Of a stretch of 64,000 nucleotides of DNA, positions 23,093 to 49,990 are shown one piece after another. The notes under the pieces are model-generated. The model was not told the DNA's origin. It ran no database searches and was given only the letters and a program-made list of their open reading frames with translations. The translations under genes and the position numbers were made by a program. Numbering within the stretch: the stretch's first letter is position 1; every line of letters begins with the position of its first letter. The stretch is from assembly GCF_000018605.1 (NCBI RefSeq), contig NC_010003.1:906501-970500 (forward strand), written 5' to 3'. The DNA comes from Petrotoga mobilis SJ95. GTDB lineage: Bacteria > Thermotogota > Thermotogae > Petrotogales > Petrotogaceae.

Positions 23093-23821
23093 GTGGCAAA
23101 AAAAAGTATTATGATAGTAGAAGACGATCCGGCGATCTCTGAAATGTTATCTTTGAACTTGACCAAAGAAGGTTACGAAGTAATAACGGCTGTGTCTGCT
23201 GATGAGGCTTTAAAGAAATTAGAGGAAAAAGATACCGACTTTTTCATAGTGGATATTATGTTACCAGGTTCAATGGATGGATTTGATTTAATTAGAATCT
23301 TGAAATCCAGCGAAGATTATCGCAATACGCCCGTACTCATATTGAGTGCCAAAGATGATGCTGCTGATAAAGTAGCTGGGTTAGAACTTGGTAGCGATGA
23401 TTATGTCACTAAACCTTTTAATGTAAGAGAACTAATTGCAAGAATTAAAAGCATATTTAGGAGACAAGCTGCATCAGCTCAAATGAAAGAAGAAGGACCC
23501 AAAAAAATTACAGCTAAAGATTTAATTATCGACACTGAAAGATTAGAAGTTTGGGTAGGGGGAAATCCAGTCAGCCTTACCCCGTTGGAGTTCGATTTGT
23601 TAGTTTTTCTTGCTAAAAATGAAGGAAAAGTCTTTAGTCGAGATGTATTGTTGGATAAATTGTGGGGTTATGACTACTACGGAGATACAAGAACAGTAGA
23701 CGTTCATATCAGAAGGTTGAGAACAAAGATCGAAGAAGATCCTTCTAATCCAAAATACATAATTACAGTAAGAGGGAAAGGATACAAATTCAGAGATCCT
23801 GGAAAGGAAAGAAACTACTAA
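23093..23821 (+). CDS. OmpR/PhoB-family response regulator
   Basis: The 242-residue regulator starts at GTG 23093 after AAAGGGGGG. The receiver domain has acidic D11-D12, phospho-acceptor D54 (FFIVDIMLPG), S85 and K107 (YVTKPF). The winged-helix output domain (about 140-237) includes GNPVSLTPLEFDLLVFLAKN and TRTVDVHIRRLRTKIEEDP. When phosphorylated, it should bind tandem DNA repeats and recruit RNA polymerase. The downstream kinase, beyond a terminator, is the likely partner. Phased repeats at 44691-44740 could suit this class of regulator, but no link is shown. Confidence 0.94.
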   Translation: MAKKSIMIVEDDPAISEMLSLNLTKEGYEVITAVSADEALKKLEEKDTDFFIVDIMLPGSMDGFDLIRILKSSEDYRNTPVLILSAKDDAADKVAGLELGSDDYVTKPFNVRELIARIKSIFRRQAASAQMKEEGPKKITAKDLIIDTERLEVWVGGNPVSLTPLEFDLLVFLAKNEGKVFSRDVLLDKLWGYDYYGDTRTVDVHIRRLRTKIEEDPSNPKYIITVRGKGYKFRDPGKERNY

Positions 23822-43842: not shown

Positions 43843-44090
43843 TTTTTCGCCTCCAAATATCTGGAAAGAACAACCGTTTCCAAAAAGGACAGAACTCCGT
43901 AAACTATTGCAATATCCAAATAAATTTCATTTTTAAAAATATGCGACAGCAAAACAATAATTCCTGTGATCATTACGTTCATAGTATCCAAAGAGACGAT
44001 TCTATCTGTTACTTCAGGACCAATTATCATTCTCAAGATCGAAAAAAACACACCTATTCCAATGAGGCTAAATACGACAATCTCTATCAT
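43839..44090 (-). CDS. mbxB: MbxB, MrpF-like subunit
   Basis: 83-residue, three-helix membrane protein with the MrpF motif MIIGPEVTDRIVSLDTMNVM. It overlaps its neighbours by 4 bp on each side. Confidence 0.92.
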   Translation of the reverse strand: MIEIVVFSLIGIGVFFSILRMIIGPEVTDRIVSLDTMNVMITGIIVLLSHIFKNEIYLDIAIVYGVLSFLETVVLSRYLEAKK

Positions 44091-44572
44091 TTGTATATCC
44101 TCCCCAAAATTTTTTCGAAAGTCCCTGTAACATGCTTTTTGTAATCTTTTTCGTTTTCACCTTTTATATCTATCCAATGGATGTATAGGTTTTCATCATC
44201 AGCATCAATTGCTAGTGTCCCAGGGGTTAAAGTAACGGAATTGGCTAAAGTTAACTTACCAACATCTCCCTTCAAATCAATAGGAATTTTCACAAAACCT
44301 GGGTTTAAAGGTATTTTTGGTGTTAAAACCCTCCTTGCAACATCGATATTTGATAAAAACATTTTGTAGACGAAAACAGGTACGTATACAACCACAAACA
44401 AAGGTAGTTTGTAAACAATGGAAAGATCAAACTCATAATCCACAAGACCTGCAATGACTCCTGCTAAAACAATTGAAACTAAGAACCCTACGATCAATTC
44501 AGAAAGGTTAAAAGAAGTCAAAAACAGCCAAATTACTAGAAGAACAACAAAAGTTGAAACAAACTTCTTCAC
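44087..44572 (-). CDS. mbxA: MbxA, MrpE-like subunit, first gene of the mbx operon
   Basis: 161-residue membrane protein with the MrpE layout: a short N-terminal membrane region and KLTLANSVTLTPGTLAIDAD, the MrpE signature. It starts at GTG 44572 after GGAGGG. The transcript begins at a promoter around 44640 and runs through thirteen overlapping genes. The overlaps (mostly 4 bp, ATGA) point to strict co-translation. Confidence 0.92.
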   Translation of the reverse strand: MKKFVSTFVVLLVIWLFLTSFNLSELIVGFLVSIVLAGVIAGLVDYEFDLSIVYKLPLFVVVYVPVFVYKMFLSNIDVARRVLTPKIPLNPGFVKIPIDLKGDVGKLTLANSVTLTPGTLAIDADDENLYIHWIDIKGENEKDYKKHVTGTFEKILGRIYK

Positions 44573-44645
44573 AACAATCCCTCCACTTTATATAGTTTGT
44601 GAAAAAAAACTCATACTTGACACAATATAAATAATATACCCATAC

Positions 44646-44673
44646 ATTATACCAGTAATTGGTATAATTTCAA
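44646..44673 (-). promoter_or_regulatory. Promoter of the mbx operon inside a perfect palindrome
   Basis: Minus strand TTGAAA (44673-44668), 16-bp spacer, TATAAT (44651-44646) preceded by TGG. The block ATTATACCA-GTAAT-TGGTATAAT (44646-44668) is a perfect palindrome with 9-bp arms, so a second, plus-strand extended -10 (44660-44668) exists in the same site. A dimeric regulator could bind here and block the polymerase. Confidence 0.7.
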
Positions 44674-44690
44674 AATCAAAAAACAACTTT

Positions 44691-44740
44691 CTAATCGTTT
44701 TTAATCGTCCTTAATTACCTCTAATTATTCCTAATCGCTA
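44691..44740. repeat. Five helically phased 10-bp TAAT direct repeats
   Basis: TAAT begins at 44692, 44702, 44712, 44722 and 44732, exactly 10 bp apart. The units read (Y)TAATCGTTT, TAATCGTCC, TAATTACCT, TAATTATTC and TAATCGCTA. They lie upstream of both divergent promoters (mbx and the AKR-psu operon). This is the form of a regulator binding array on one face of the helix. Confidence 0.75.
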
Positions 44741-44764
44741 ATTTTCTATAGTATTTATTTTTTA

Positions 44765-44773
44765 TGGTATAAT
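44765..44773 (+). promoter_or_regulatory. Extended -10 promoter of the AKR-psu operon
   Basis: TG-G-TATAAT at 44765-44773, about 77 bp before the ATG at 44850. No clear -35 is visible; the TAAT repeats begin about 27 bp upstream. Confidence 0.6.
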
Positions 44774-44849
44774 TGAATATGCAATTTTTCATATCTTTTT
44801 TAAGTGTTGATCACCTTCCAGGGGGTACCATTGAAAGGAGGAACTAGAT

Positions 44850-45701
44850 ATGCAGAGAAGGATTTTGGGTAAGACACAAGAAGAACTCTCTATCATAGGT
44901 TTGGATTTGGAAAAGCTGCTGGTAAGCGAATATAATTATGAAATTAAAAGGTTTTTAGAAAAGTTTATTCTAGGTGGTGTAAATTTCTTTGAAATTTCGC
45001 CTACATTGGAACCTAAAGACGAAGCGACTATTTTTCCAATAAATTTGCATAGGGATAAACTTTTTATTGCGGGTAAGTCTTTCTCCAAAAGCAGTGATGA
45101 GATACAACTGGACATAAAAGAACTCTTAGCTAAATTCAATCTTCAATATCTAGACTTGATCCAAATTGTTGCAAATACCCAAGAGGATATTCATAGAATT
45201 CTAGGTCCTGAAGGCGCGTTAGAGGGATTCTTTGCCGCCAAAAATTTGGGCTTAGTAAAATACATAGGTTTTTCAACAAACAAAGAAAGCATAGCTTTAC
45301 AACTTTTAGAAAGTTATGATTTTGATTCGATTACCTTTCCCATAGATTGGATGAATTGGTACACTGGTTATGGAAGAAAAGTAATTTCTAAAGCCAAGGA
45401 AAAAGGAACTGGCGTAATAAGTAAACAAAATCTTATAAAAAAGATAACGAAGATAAATGCAGAAAAAGGGATATCGGACCTTCTTTATATTCCTTCTGAA
45501 AGTTATGAAGAAGTGAAGACAACGATAAGATTTTCTCTTACTAAGCCAATAACCTCTATATTATGCTCTAGCCACATAAACCTTTTAGAATGGTTAATAA
45601 AAGCAGCAGACGAATTCACACCACTTGATATTCAAGAAGAAGAAAATTTGCGAAAAAGTTGTGAAGATCTAGGAAAAGTTTTTAACCCTAAAAACATTTG
45701 A
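44850..45701 (+). CDS. Aldo/keto reductase-fold protein, probable pseudoenzyme
   Basis: The 283-residue protein is AKR-like (RRILGKTQEELSIIGLDLEK, LGLVKYIGFSTNKE). The catalytic Asp-Tyr-Lys-His set is largely gone: the FDT..Y region reads FFEISPTLEPKDE (Asp to Glu, no Tyr) and the QLH site reads LIQIVANTQ. Only the Lys (FIAGKSF) remains. Reductase activity is therefore unlikely, and a structural or regulatory role is possible. The start is ATG 44850 after GGAGG. It is the first gene of an operon with psuK, psuG and pdxK-like. Confidence 0.75.
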   Translation: MQRRILGKTQEELSIIGLDLEKLLVSEYNYEIKRFLEKFILGGVNFFEISPTLEPKDEATIFPINLHRDKLFIAGKSFSKSSDEIQLDIKELLAKFNLQYLDLIQIVANTQEDIHRILGPEGALEGFFAAKNLGLVKYIGFSTNKESIALQLLESYDFDSITFPIDWMNWYTGYGRKVISKAKEKGTGVISKQNLIKKITKINAEKGISDLLYIPSESYEEVKTTIRFSLTKPITSILCSSHINLLEWLIKAADEFTPLDIQEEENLRKSCEDLGKVFNPKNI

Positions 45702-45712
45702 GGAGAAATTTT

Positions 45713-46636
45713 ATGTATGTATCAGTAATAGGAGGAATAAATACAGATTTCAAAGGATCTTCTTACGAAAAATTATCTCTCAAGACTTCAAACCCTGGAC
45801 GTATCTTTTATTCTTCAGGAGGTGTAGCTCGGAATGTTGCCCACAATTTATGCAAATTAGAAGTCCCTGTTAATTTATTTGGAGCAGTTGGGAACGATGT
45901 ATTTGGTGAAATAATTTTAGCCGAATTAGATAATCTAAAGATAAATACTAATTTTATCAAGATTTGTGATAACCGTCGTACGGGTGTTTACCTGGCTATT
46001 TTAGACGAAAAAAAAGATATGTTTGTCTCTATATCAGACATGGATATTATTAATGAGATAAATATAAATTATATAAAAAAACACAAAGATACGTTACTCC
46101 AATCAAAAATTGTCTTTCTTGAAGCAAATTTAGAACCTCAGACGATAGAATATATACTTAAAATCCTTGAAAACACGAATGTTTACACAGTTTTTAACGC
46201 CGTATCAAATCTAAAAGTAAAAAAATTAAAAAATATAACTGGAAAAATAGATTATCTGACCCTAAACTTCTCAGAATTGAAATCCTTAAGAGAACAAGAA
46301 AACTTGAATTTTTTTGATTATAAAAGTATACAAAAGACTTTTCCAGAAAAATTCCCCAATATTTTTAATTTAATTGTAACAAACGGGGAAGAGGGGGTTC
46401 TCCTTTTAAACAATCGCTTTAAAAGAGCAGATTTCTTTTCTGTAGCTGAAGTCGAAGACTCTGAAATAGTCGATGCCAATGGTGCCGGAGATGCTTTCAC
46501 TGCTGGATTTATCTACGGCATTTACAAAGATGCTGATATAGAAAAAAGCATTGAATACGGAATAAAAGCCTCTCAAATTACCCTAAAAAGTCCAAAAACA
46601 GTGGCAGATGAGTTATCTTCTGAAATTTTTGGTTGA
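45713..46636 (+). CDS. psuK: PfkB-family kinase, pseudouridine kinase-like
   Basis: The 307-residue kinase has the PfkB N-terminal GGINTDFKGSS region, YSSGGVARNVAHNLCKLEV and the C-terminal signature VDANGAGDAFTAGFIYG, whose Asp is the catalytic base. Pairing with psuG in the same operon supports phosphorylation of pseudouridine to its 5'-phosphate. The start is ATG 45713, with GGAG upstream; it overlaps no gene. A repeat element separates it from psuG. Confidence 0.85.
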   Translation: MYVSVIGGINTDFKGSSYEKLSLKTSNPGRIFYSSGGVARNVAHNLCKLEVPVNLFGAVGNDVFGEIILAELDNLKINTNFIKICDNRRTGVYLAILDEKKDMFVSISDMDIINEININYIKKHKDTLLQSKIVFLEANLEPQTIEYILKILENTNVYTVFNAVSNLKVKKLKNITGKIDYLTLNFSELKSLREQENLNFFDYKSIQKTFPEKFPNIFNLIVTNGEEGVLLLNNRFKRADFFSVAEVEDSEIVDANGAGDAFTAGFIYGIYKDADIEKSIEYGIKASQITLKSPKTVADELSSEIFG

Positions 46637-46647
46637 CTAAAAGTCAA

Positions 46648-46856
46648 AAACAGGGCAAAGCCCTGTTTGCGCTACTGTGCAAACCATGTTTTTTTGCAGC
46701 TTTGTGTAAAAAGCCTTTTGCAGCTTTGTGCAAAATAGTTTGTTTGCAATGCTTTAGAAATGTTTTTCAAAATCTCGTTTGCTACGCTAATGATGTATTG
46801 AAATTGGGGATCTTAAGGGGTTTACTCCTTAACGTCCGGGCAAAGTGGCGCTATAG
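46648..46856. repeat. Composite repeat, units A and B, inverted copy between psuK and psuG
   Basis: From left: a 9-bp hairpin (AAACAGGGC-AAA-GCCCTGTTT), palindromes GTTTGC-N8-GCAAAC (46665-46684), TTTTGC-N8-GTAAAA (46692-46711) and TTTTGC-N8-GCAAAA (46716-46735), the body of a 73-bp unit (inverse of 1125-1190), then a diverged inverted unit A ending at TGGCGCTATAG. The order matches 865-1221 in reverse, including the 24-bp step and the TTTTAC variant. It has no convincing gene; the ORF across it is repeat translation. Confidence 0.8.
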
Positions 46857-46902
46857 AAAGTTTGTAAAACAATAAAAATACAGCTTTTGGAGGAAAACTA
46901 AT

Positions 46903-47823
46903 ATGAATACAACCCCATATTTAGAAATAAAAGAAGAAGTGTACCAAGCTTTAAAAGAAAATAGACCTATCGTTGCCTTGGAATCAACTATAATTTCTCA
47001 TGGAATGCCTTATCCACAAAATGTAGAAGTTGCAAAAAATGTAGAAGAAACAATAAGAGAAAGGGGAGCAGTTCCAGCAACTATCGCAATAATAGATGGC
47101 AAAATGAAAGTAGGATTATCAAAAGAAGAATTAGAATTCATGGCCACCTCCAAAAATATATTGAAAGCAAGCAGGATGGATCTCCCCGTTATCCTTGCAA
47201 AAGGTTTTAACGCCGCTACCACGGTTGCAGCAACTATGATAATAGCTGAACTTGCTGGAATAAAGGTTTTTGTAACAGGAGGAATAGGAGGTGTACATAG
47301 AAACGCTCAAGAAACTTTTGATATCTCCGCAGACCTGCAAGAGCTTGCCAAAACCAACGTGGCGGTGATATCTGCTGGACCTAAAGCTATATTAGATCTT
47401 CAATTAACCAAAGAATATCTAGAAACTTTCGGTGTCCCAGTGATTGGCTATCAAACAGACGAACTTCCATGCTTTTTTTCGAGGGAAAGTGGGATAAATG
47501 TACCTTATAGAGTTGAAACTCCTAAAGAAATCGCATCAATAATGAAGACAAAGTGGGACTTGGGCCTACAAGGGGGCATTTTTATTGCAAATCCTATTCC
47601 TAAAGAGTATTCACTGGATTTTGAGGAAATAGATAAAACAATAGAAAACGCAATAGAAGAGGCTAAAAAGCGAAAAATAAAAGGTAAGGAATTAACCCCC
47701 TTTCTACTTTCAAAAATAAACGAATTAACAAAAGGGGAAAGTTTAAAAGCAAATATTGAATTAGTCTACAACAATGCCCAACTTGGTGCAGAAATAGCAA
47801 AAGAGTTTAACATCCTATCTTAG
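46903..47823 (+). CDS. psuG: Pseudouridine-5'-phosphate glycosidase
   Basis: The 306-residue PsuG cleaves pseudouridine 5'-phosphate to uracil and ribose 5-phosphate. Signatures are ALESTIISHGMPYPQNVEVA, FVTGGIGGVHRNAQETFDIS and AGPKAILDLQLTKEYLETFG with the catalytic Lys. It starts at ATG 46903 behind TTGGAGG. The gene is co-directional with psuK. Confidence 0.95.
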   Translation: MNTTPYLEIKEEVYQALKENRPIVALESTIISHGMPYPQNVEVAKNVEETIRERGAVPATIAIIDGKMKVGLSKEELEFMATSKNILKASRMDLPVILAKGFNAATTVAATMIIAELAGIKVFVTGGIGGVHRNAQETFDISADLQELAKTNVAVISAGPKAILDLQLTKEYLETFGVPVIGYQTDELPCFFSRESGINVPYRVETPKEIASIMKTKWDLGLQGGIFIANPIPKEYSLDFEEIDKTIENAIEEAKKRKIKGKELTPFLLSKINELTKGESLKANIELVYNNAQLGAEIAKEFNILS

Positions 47824-47832
47824 GGGAAAGGA

Positions 47833-48717
47833 ATGATGTATTTGAAAGAGAAACCTATCAAAAGAGTTGCGGCAATTCACGATCTTTCAGGTTTTGGAAA
47901 AGCTTCTTTAACCGTTGTAATTCCTATATTATCTTCTATGGAGATTCAAGTCTGCCCACTTCCCACTGCCATACTATCAACCCATACAGGGGGGTTTGAG
48001 GATTACTCTTTTTTGGATCTAACAGACAATATGAAAGATATAATATCGCATTGGAAAAAATTAGACCTGAGTTTTGATGCCATTTATAGTGGTTTTTTAG
48101 GTTCAGAAAAACAGATCGATATTGTAATGGAATTTATACAATATTTTTCACAGAAAAATGAAACTCTAGTAGTCGTTGATCCAGTACTGGGCGATGACGG
48201 GAGACTTTACGCTACCATTACTGAAGGCATGGTCAAAGATATGAAAAAACTAGTTTCCAAGTCTCATGTAATAACACCAAATTTAACGGAAGCTTGTTTT
48301 CTTTTGGATGAAAAGTACGACCAAGATATTAGTGAAGAGATGTTGAAAAGCTGGTTAAAACGTTTGTCAGACATGGGCCCAGAAATCGTTATTATAACAA
48401 GTGTTCCTGATGAATCTAAATCAAAAATAGGGGTTTTAGCTTATGAAAGGACAAATAATAGGTTTTGGAAAATCACCAATAACTATATAAAAGCCTTATA
48501 CCCTGGTACAGGGGACTCCTTTGCAAGCGTTATCGTTGGTAGTCTTTTAAACGGAGACAGTGTACCGATGGCAATAGACAGGGCTACTCAATTCGTTTCT
48601 ACGTGTTTAAAAGCTAGTTATGGTTATAAATATCCCCAAAGGGAAGGCATACTTTTAGAAAAAGTGCTTGATACTTTGAACGCCCCAACACTTTTACAAA
48701 GCTATGAGATTTTTTAG
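47833..48717 (+). CDS. Pyridoxamine/pyridoxal kinase-like protein
   Basis: The 294-residue protein matches the pyridoxine/pyridoxal kinase family (PdxK/PdxY-like, related to ThiD): AAIHDLSGFGKASLTVVIPI, VVDPVLGDDGRLY, HVITPNLTEACFLL and YPGTGDSFASVIVGSLLNG. It should phosphorylate vitamin B6 vitamers. It starts at ATG 47833 (or the next codon), 9 bp after psuG, so it is probably part of that operon. A link to pseudouridine use is not obvious. Confidence 0.83.
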   Translation: MMYLKEKPIKRVAAIHDLSGFGKASLTVVIPILSSMEIQVCPLPTAILSTHTGGFEDYSFLDLTDNMKDIISHWKKLDLSFDAIYSGFLGSEKQIDIVMEFIQYFSQKNETLVVVDPVLGDDGRLYATITEGMVKDMKKLVSKSHVITPNLTEACFLLDEKYDQDISEEMLKSWLKRLSDMGPEIVIITSVPDESKSKIGVLAYERTNNRFWKITNNYIKALYPGTGDSFASVIVGSLLNGDSVPMAIDRATQFVSTCLKASYGYKYPQREGILLEKVLDTLNAPTLLQSYEIF

Positions 48718-48769
48718 AAGAGTTTTTGTTGTATAATATTAGAAAGGAAAAGGTTGGTGCTTAAAAGTC

Positions 48770-49990
48770 ATGAATTTATCTGTGTATTCAGAAATCGGAA
48801 AATTAGAAAAAATCCTTCTACATAGACCGGGAAAAGAGTTAGAAAATTTATCTCCTCATTATCTTTCTGATCTGTTATTTGACGATATTCCTTTTTTGTA
48901 TAAAGCGCAAGAAGAACATGATTACTTTGCAAATGTTTTAAGAGAGAATGGTGTAGAAGTTTTGTATCTTACTGAATTGTTGACGGAAACGCTTAATGAT
49001 TTGGATTTAAAAGAAAAATTTGTCAAAGAGTTTTTACAATTCTCAGAAATATACAATAGCTTCATTTATGCTCTTTTAAAAGATTATTTGTTTTCCCTAG
49101 ATACCAAAGAAATGGTGGATACTATAATATCGGGTATACGTTCTGATGAACTAGAAATTAACAGAAACATCTTCTCCTTGAGGGTTAGAAGAGCGGATAT
49201 AGAGTTACCTTTTTTCCTTCCACCTATGCCGAATCTATATTTTCAAAGGGATCCTGTGGCGATTTTGGGAAAAGGTGCCTGCGTGAACAGAATGAAAACC
49301 TCAGCAAGAAGAAGAGAAGTTATGCTTATGGAATATGTCATAAAATACAACACAAAATTTGAAGGCACCCCATTGTATTACGAGAAAGATTACCCTTATC
49401 CAATAGAGGGTGGGGATATCTTAGTGTTAAGCGAAAAAGTTTTAGCGGTAGGGATTTCTCAAAGAACCTCACCAGAAGCTGTTGAAATCCTAGCTAAGAA
49501 GTTTCTAAAAGAAAATAAAGATACCTTTGAGAAGATAATTGCTTTTATAATACCTGATAATAGGGCTTATATGCATTTAGACACCATATTCACAATGGTT
49601 GATTACGATAAATTTCTAGTACATGCAAATTTAAAAGAAGATATAGATACTTTCATTATTACTAAGTCTAAAGAGGGATTTGATTTTTATGAAGAAGAAG
49701 AAAGTTTGGAAAACATATTAAAAAAACATCTTAATTTAGATCATGTCGAAATTATTAAATGTGGAAACGCTGATATAATAGCATCACACAGGGAACAGTG
49801 GAATGATGGCTCCAACAGTTTGGCAATAGAACCTGGAAAGGTTATCACCTACGATCGAAATTACATCACCAACAGAGAATTAGAAAAATCGGGGATAGAA
49901 GTTTTAACCATACCGTCCAGTGAATTATCTAGAGGAAGGGGAGGCCCTAGGTGCGCTAGTATGCCACTTATAAGGAGGAGATACTCTTGA
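48770..49990 (+). CDS. arcA: Arginine deiminase
   Basis: The 406-residue enzyme hydrolyses arginine to citrulline and ammonia, the first step of the arginine deiminase ATP pathway. Signatures are FQRDPVAILGKGACVNRMKT, the guanidino-binding Asp region IEGGDILVLSEKVLAVGISQ, MHLDTIFTMVDYDKFLVH and the catalytic Cys395 in RGRGGPRCASMP. It starts at ATG 48770. TATAAT at 48732-48737 may be its -10. No arcB or arcC lies in the window. Its stop overlaps the next gene's start by 4 bp. Confidence 0.95.
   Translation: MNLSVYSEIGKLEKILLHRPGKELENLSPHYLSDLLFDDIPFLYKAQEEHDYFANVLRENGVEVLYLTELLTETLNDLDLKEKFVKEFLQFSEIYNSFIYALLKDYLFSLDTKEMVDTIISGIRSDELEINRNIFSLRVRRADIELPFFLPPMPNLYFQRDPVAILGKGACVNRMKTSARRREVMLMEYVIKYNTKFEGTPLYYEKDYPYPIEGGDILVLSEKVLAVGISQRTSPEAVEILAKKFLKENKDTFEKIIAFIIPDNRAYMHLDTIFTMVDYDKFLVHANLKEDIDTFIITKSKEGFDFYEEEESLENILKKHLNLDHVEIIKCGNADIIASHREQWNDGSNSLAIEPGKVITYDRNYITNRELEKSGIEVLTIPSSELSRGRGGPRCASMPLIRRRYS

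Follow-up and report, generated by a model that had tools for sequence, protein, structure and literature searches.

Five TAAT motifs stand at regular intervals in the gap between the divergent mbx and psu operons of Petrotoga mobilis SJ95, and they raise the question of whether this array is a site peculiar to the two operons or one copy of a more general element, and what might read it. Within the 64,000-nt stretch of DNA that was analysed (the window), the motifs start at 44692, 44702, 44712, 44722 and 44732. These are exact 10-bp steps without drift, as a sequence-only reading of the window had described; an extra TAAT at 44739 is out of step with the array.

The array between the mbx and psu operons

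Chance and low complexity were ruled out as the origin of the array. A chain of four or five such motifs arose in none of 20,000 second-order Markov simulations of the 277-bp, 73% A+T gap and in none of 100 dinucleotide shuffles of the window. Moreover, in 464 kb of sequence from the same genome, triplets of TAAWY occurred 15 times at period 10 versus zero to three times at any of the other periods between 7 and 15.

The repeat unit is longer than TAAT: its genome consensus is TAAWYGNCTW, and an A-rich box lies upstream in the same register. In the window, five 10-bp units (TAATCGTTTT, TAATCGTCCT, TAATTACCTC, TAATTATTCC and TAATCGCTAA) occupy positions 44692 to 44741 on the plus strand and match the array model R1 (see below) with an E-value of 7.4e-9. 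The A-rich upstream part of the composite covers 44665 to 44691 (plus strand), keeps the 10-bp register and, judging from the profile and from an R3 alignment with orthologues, is the counterpart of the AAAA-GAGA box seen elsewhere; where that box has its conserved G, the window copy has an A, and the relatives L122 and L123 have G. Downstream, a putative extended -10 (TGG TATAAT) of a psu-side promoter is recognisable at 44765 to 44773 (plus strand) and is conserved in relatives. This sequence, TGGTATAAT, begins 36 bp after the last TAAT start and is not accompanied by a good -35. The window copy is a full composite (44665–44773) but a non-canonical one: it and a few others fall outside the usual helical phase. 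Its shortened 36-bp spacing is also kept in relatives, and the same 36-bp, extended -10 form occurs at one other promoter (genome position 1942653).

The operon faced by the array opens with an aldo/keto-reductase-like gene (44850–45701, plus strand; a weak match to PF00248, below its cut-off). It continues, according to Pfam, with genes for a PfkB kinase, a PsuG-like protein of the Indigoidine_A family, a pyridoxal-kinase-like protein and an arginine deiminase (45698–49990, plus strand). On the other side, the mrpE-like first gene of the mbx/Mrp operon (44087–44572, minus strand; PF01899 MNHE) reads away from the array. A putative mbx-side promoter can be read at 44646 to 44673 on the minus strand, with a -35 TTGAAA at 44673–44668, a 16-bp spacer and a -10 TATAAT at 44651–44646, the latter conserved in relatives. 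The array is accordingly flanked by two divergent promoters, both predicted, as had been proposed. The -35 on the mbx side is overlapped by the upstream end of the composite, so crosstalk is possible; the polarity of the array points at the psu side only.

An RNA element was rejected as an explanation, since an Rfam search of 44300–45200 gave no family match at E ≤ 1 and the predicted start is located downstream of the array. Two further features of the region were observed. A palindrome, ATTATACC-AGTAATT-GGTATAAT, spans the putative mbx promoter at 44646–44668, is largely conserved in the genus and is a possible operator. Open reading frame stretches with repeated FAALCK-like residues, found in or beside intergenic DNA at window positions 46633–46875 and at L050 4891–6132, may reflect a repeated DNA element translated as though it were coding.

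Copies and promoter geometry across the genome

The genome scan suggested by the sequence-only reading recovered about 40 such arrays in 2,169,548 bp, many of them in front of promoters. A sequence model made from 23 arrays (R1) had 39 matches in this genome at E ≤ 0.01, versus two for a control with the columns of the same alignment reversed (R2; reversal verified), and a composite model (R3) had 44 composite matches at the same threshold. This number of copies rules out a site unique to the mbx and psu operons. The earlier proposal that the repeats link the energy-conserving complex to nucleoside breakdown is left unsupported, because the module is generic and faces only one of the two operons. 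A copied mobile element or a tandem duplication was also rejected: beyond the consensus, both the units and the flanking sequences differ.

Among 43 arrays examined, 37 are intergenic and point at a downstream gene on the same strand, and 20 of these gene-facing arrays sit in divergent gaps; those that fall inside open reading frames (genome positions 96473 and 1082094) are probably spurious. Before several arrays, AAAA-GAGA is replaced by another upstream box, ATGAAATTTTTTTCAT. Boxes of this type were seen at G000:C1 1583574, 336680, 1668702 and 1724326, and also at L159 and L316.

The arrays hold a constant position relative to the promoter. A sigma70-type promoter was assigned for 34 of them by a search blind to phase, and about one fifth of the arrays found have no assignable promoter. 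For 29 of the 34, the TAAT of the last unit starts 32, 42 or 52 bp before the -10 (Rayleigh p ~3e-11), which places TAAT at 2 mod 10, a single helical phase. When these 29 promoters are aligned on the -10 alone, TAAW recurs at -82, -72, -62, -52, -42 and -32, followed by YG and C, in a profile that is cleaner than the full set because its members were selected by phase. The same profile has TTG at -23 and, in 23 of the 29, a G at -94 in the A-rich/GAGA box (positions are counted from the first base of the -10, and -94 corresponds to about -106 from the start site). The units are polar: 99 of 116 read TAA and none reads TTA, and YG follows in 64 versus CR preceding in five. Generic TATAAT sites have no such phase, which rules out a general feature of all TATAAT promoters. 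The array is absent from both rRNA operon promoters examined.

A search of open-access papers returned no earlier description of the element, and an account in a subscription journal is possible. For a subset of promoters, a map of Thermotoga maritima records only that A+T content rises some 75 bp upstream (PMC3636130), and a 2017 survey of spaced motifs that includes P. mobilis gives ATTATA(N)18GTCAA for this species (PMC5217627). In our reading, the latter motif is the -35/-10 pair seen from the opposite strand and does not represent the array.

Readings of the array

We consider it somewhat probable (roughly 0.55) that the array forms the middle section of a promoter-upstream element with fixed geometry, found in Thermotogota and bound head-to-tail by an activator protein that recruits polymerase. 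The position of the array suggests an activating role, and its polarity, near-fixed number of units, fixed distance and separate upstream box argue for a sequence-specific protein that assembles head-to-tail and contacts polymerase. Such a protein would read the polar unit TAAWYGNCTW with one protomer per helical turn, and would oligomerise along some six units, spanning the DNA between the -35 edge and the GAGA/A-rich box near -94. Protomers on the same face of the helix could then recruit RNA polymerase and raise promoter strength, and gene-specific repressors would act on top of this activation. Local repressor-like sites do follow the start at several targets, for example HrcA-type repeats at groESL; the array therefore resembles a general-purpose activation module, with control exerted locally. 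At the window locus, the action would be on the psu-side operon, across the non-standard spacing to the extended -10.

The nearest analogues are sites of the ArcA/OmpR/PhoB type. ArcA sites consist of three to five repeats, 11 bp from centre to centre and plastic in number and position; they resemble the array in having several directly repeated, polar units at intervals of roughly one helical turn, and many global targets (PMC3798270). The array differs in its 10-bp spacing, about six units, fixed distance from the -10, separate upstream box and core. With regard to the OmpR/PhoB type in general, spacing (exactly 10 bp) and strict polarity agree; to our knowledge, the core TAAWYG is unlike the consensus sequences of that family. 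MraZ boxes are likewise 10-bp direct repeats near a promoter, but they have a TGGG core, whereas the array has TAAWYG and tens of unrelated targets.

Cooperative tandem binding, as the sequence-only reading had envisaged, is in keeping with the one-turn spacing, the head-to-tail polarity and the proximity to promoters; nothing ties the regulator encoded at window position 23093, which it had put forward as a candidate, to the array. This regulator is of a plausible type: it is a full-length OmpR/PhoB-type response regulator, and its family binds tandem 10–11-bp repeats (PMC3798270). However, a search of the window detected no array at the operon of the regulator, whose closest solved relatives are RegX3, MtrA and PhoP, and nothing connects the regulator with the array targets. 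The sites of this group, as far as we know, do not resemble TAAWYG, and we regard this regulator as a highly improbable binder.

Other readings do without a dedicated activator. The array could be an extended UP element, with the C-terminal domains of the RNA polymerase alpha subunit (alpha-CTDs) binding the A/T part of each turn. Like a UP element, it lies upstream of the -35, in phase with polymerase, and has an A/T-rich core in each turn; relative to the start site, its TAAT centres lie near -42, -52 and -62, where alpha-CTDs classically bind. The alpha-CTD (PF03118) is present in all four genomes examined, its DNA-contacting Arg/Asn motif was seen in G098 and G049, and UP elements have been proposed for some T. 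maritima promoters (PMC3636130). On the other hand, the units are strictly polar, with YG and C conserved outside the A/T core; the element is about 100 bp long, and two alpha-CTDs would be too few for six units and a fixed cap. A UP element would also be expected at the rRNA promoters, which lack the array. We find this reading unlikely. Alternatively, phased A/T, with G/C half a turn away, could form curved or easily wrapped DNA that bends around polymerase or HU without any sequence-specific protein. The array has in common with phased A-tract activating sequences the 10-bp phasing and the dependence on rotational position, and its A/T periodicity, which spans about 90 bp, stays in a fixed phase relative to the promoter. 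The mean bend predicted from wedge values is 49 versus 36–37 degrees in controls, with a wide spread. This increase is only modest, however, and bending is indifferent to strand, yet reversed units number zero; curvature alone does not require strand-polar units, and this reading is decidedly unlikely. Polarity, composition and the rRNA promoters together mean that UP-element and curvature models explain the array poorly.

It is very unlikely that the array serves to repress or insulate divergent promoters, as an operator or as a binding site for a nucleoid protein. The divergent gaps noted above, and the overlap of the upstream end of the element with the putative mbx -35 in the window, would suit such a role, but the units end at the -35, leave the facing promoter free and keep a constant phase, which is the layout of an activator site.

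Distribution in the phylum and target genes

Retention in relatives, on which the sequence-only reading had made its proposal depend, was found: in each of the five other genomes of the genus the psu locus still carries the element, array included, and even the degenerate copy of the most distant one can be recognised. Across these five genomes R1 had 25 to 48 matches, and in G011 it had 25, versus zero to three for R2. Thus all six genomes of the genus carry the array element, and it is sparser through the phylum: of 103 Thermotogota genomes, 65 have a match to the array model versus nine with the reversed control. Matches to R3 at E ≤ 0.001 occur in 30 of 38 genera; these E-values are rough, as control genomes from other phyla, chosen for holding the pattern, gave about one weak match each, so isolated weak matches in distant genera need caution. 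Independent of the E-values is the repeated groESL context, with the element preceding groESL in families f1, f5, f8, f10 and f11; in f11 genomes it also stands before sugar-transporter and ROK genes. In G098, an mbx-type operon headed by an mrpE-like gene has an array pointing at it (near position 2,500 of L148), whereas the array in the window faces away from mbx. A scan of all genomes with TAAWYGx4 returned, among the matches listed, scattered and apparently chance occurrences, uninformative on other phyla. A match in Caldisericaceae (L318) was rejected as an array, being a near-perfect tandem repeat and a different thing.

More tentatively, and at somewhat less than even odds, the binder may be a so far undescribed, phylum-wide global activator or architectural protein of Thermotogota that covers a rigid 100-bp promoter element with a polar oligomer of fixed length, made up of some six protomers and a cap. 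A study of the sugar regulons of T. maritima concluded that Thermotoga uses no global regulators (PMC3750489); if true, our proposal would join carbon, nitrogen and chaperone genes of this lineage in a common promoter class. A rigid composite at about 40 promoters here, and at groESL in five families, points to a shared activation mechanism absent from the two T. maritima studies cited, and would supply ready-made promoters for a thermophile group of biotechnological use.

The first genes behind the arrays in P. mobilis are diverse. According to Pfam, they encode extracellular solute-binding proteins and LacI, ROK and GntR regulators; glutamate dehydrogenase, glutamine synthetase, aminotransferases and an aromatic amino acid (histidine-type) lyase; glycine cleavage T, prephenate dehydratase, 2,4-diaminopentanoate dehydrogenase and a ferredoxin-like protein; and H+-pyrophosphatase, fructose bisphosphatase, alpha-amylase and beta-galactosidase. 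The groESL operon, recognised from its sequence, is also among the targets. One array (192113, minus strand; L052, G000:C1 ~191,930–192,080) faces a stretch of about 110 nt that ends in a terminator, GGGCCTTATTAAGGCCC. This stretch holds no same-strand open reading frame and has no convincing Rfam match, and may be considered a candidate small RNA. Arrays very similar to that of L052 were seen in G001, G002, G004 and G005. At L053 (G000:C1 252239–252438), divergent lyase (hutH-like) and peptide-transporter operons each have an array of their own, and the two arrays point in opposite directions.
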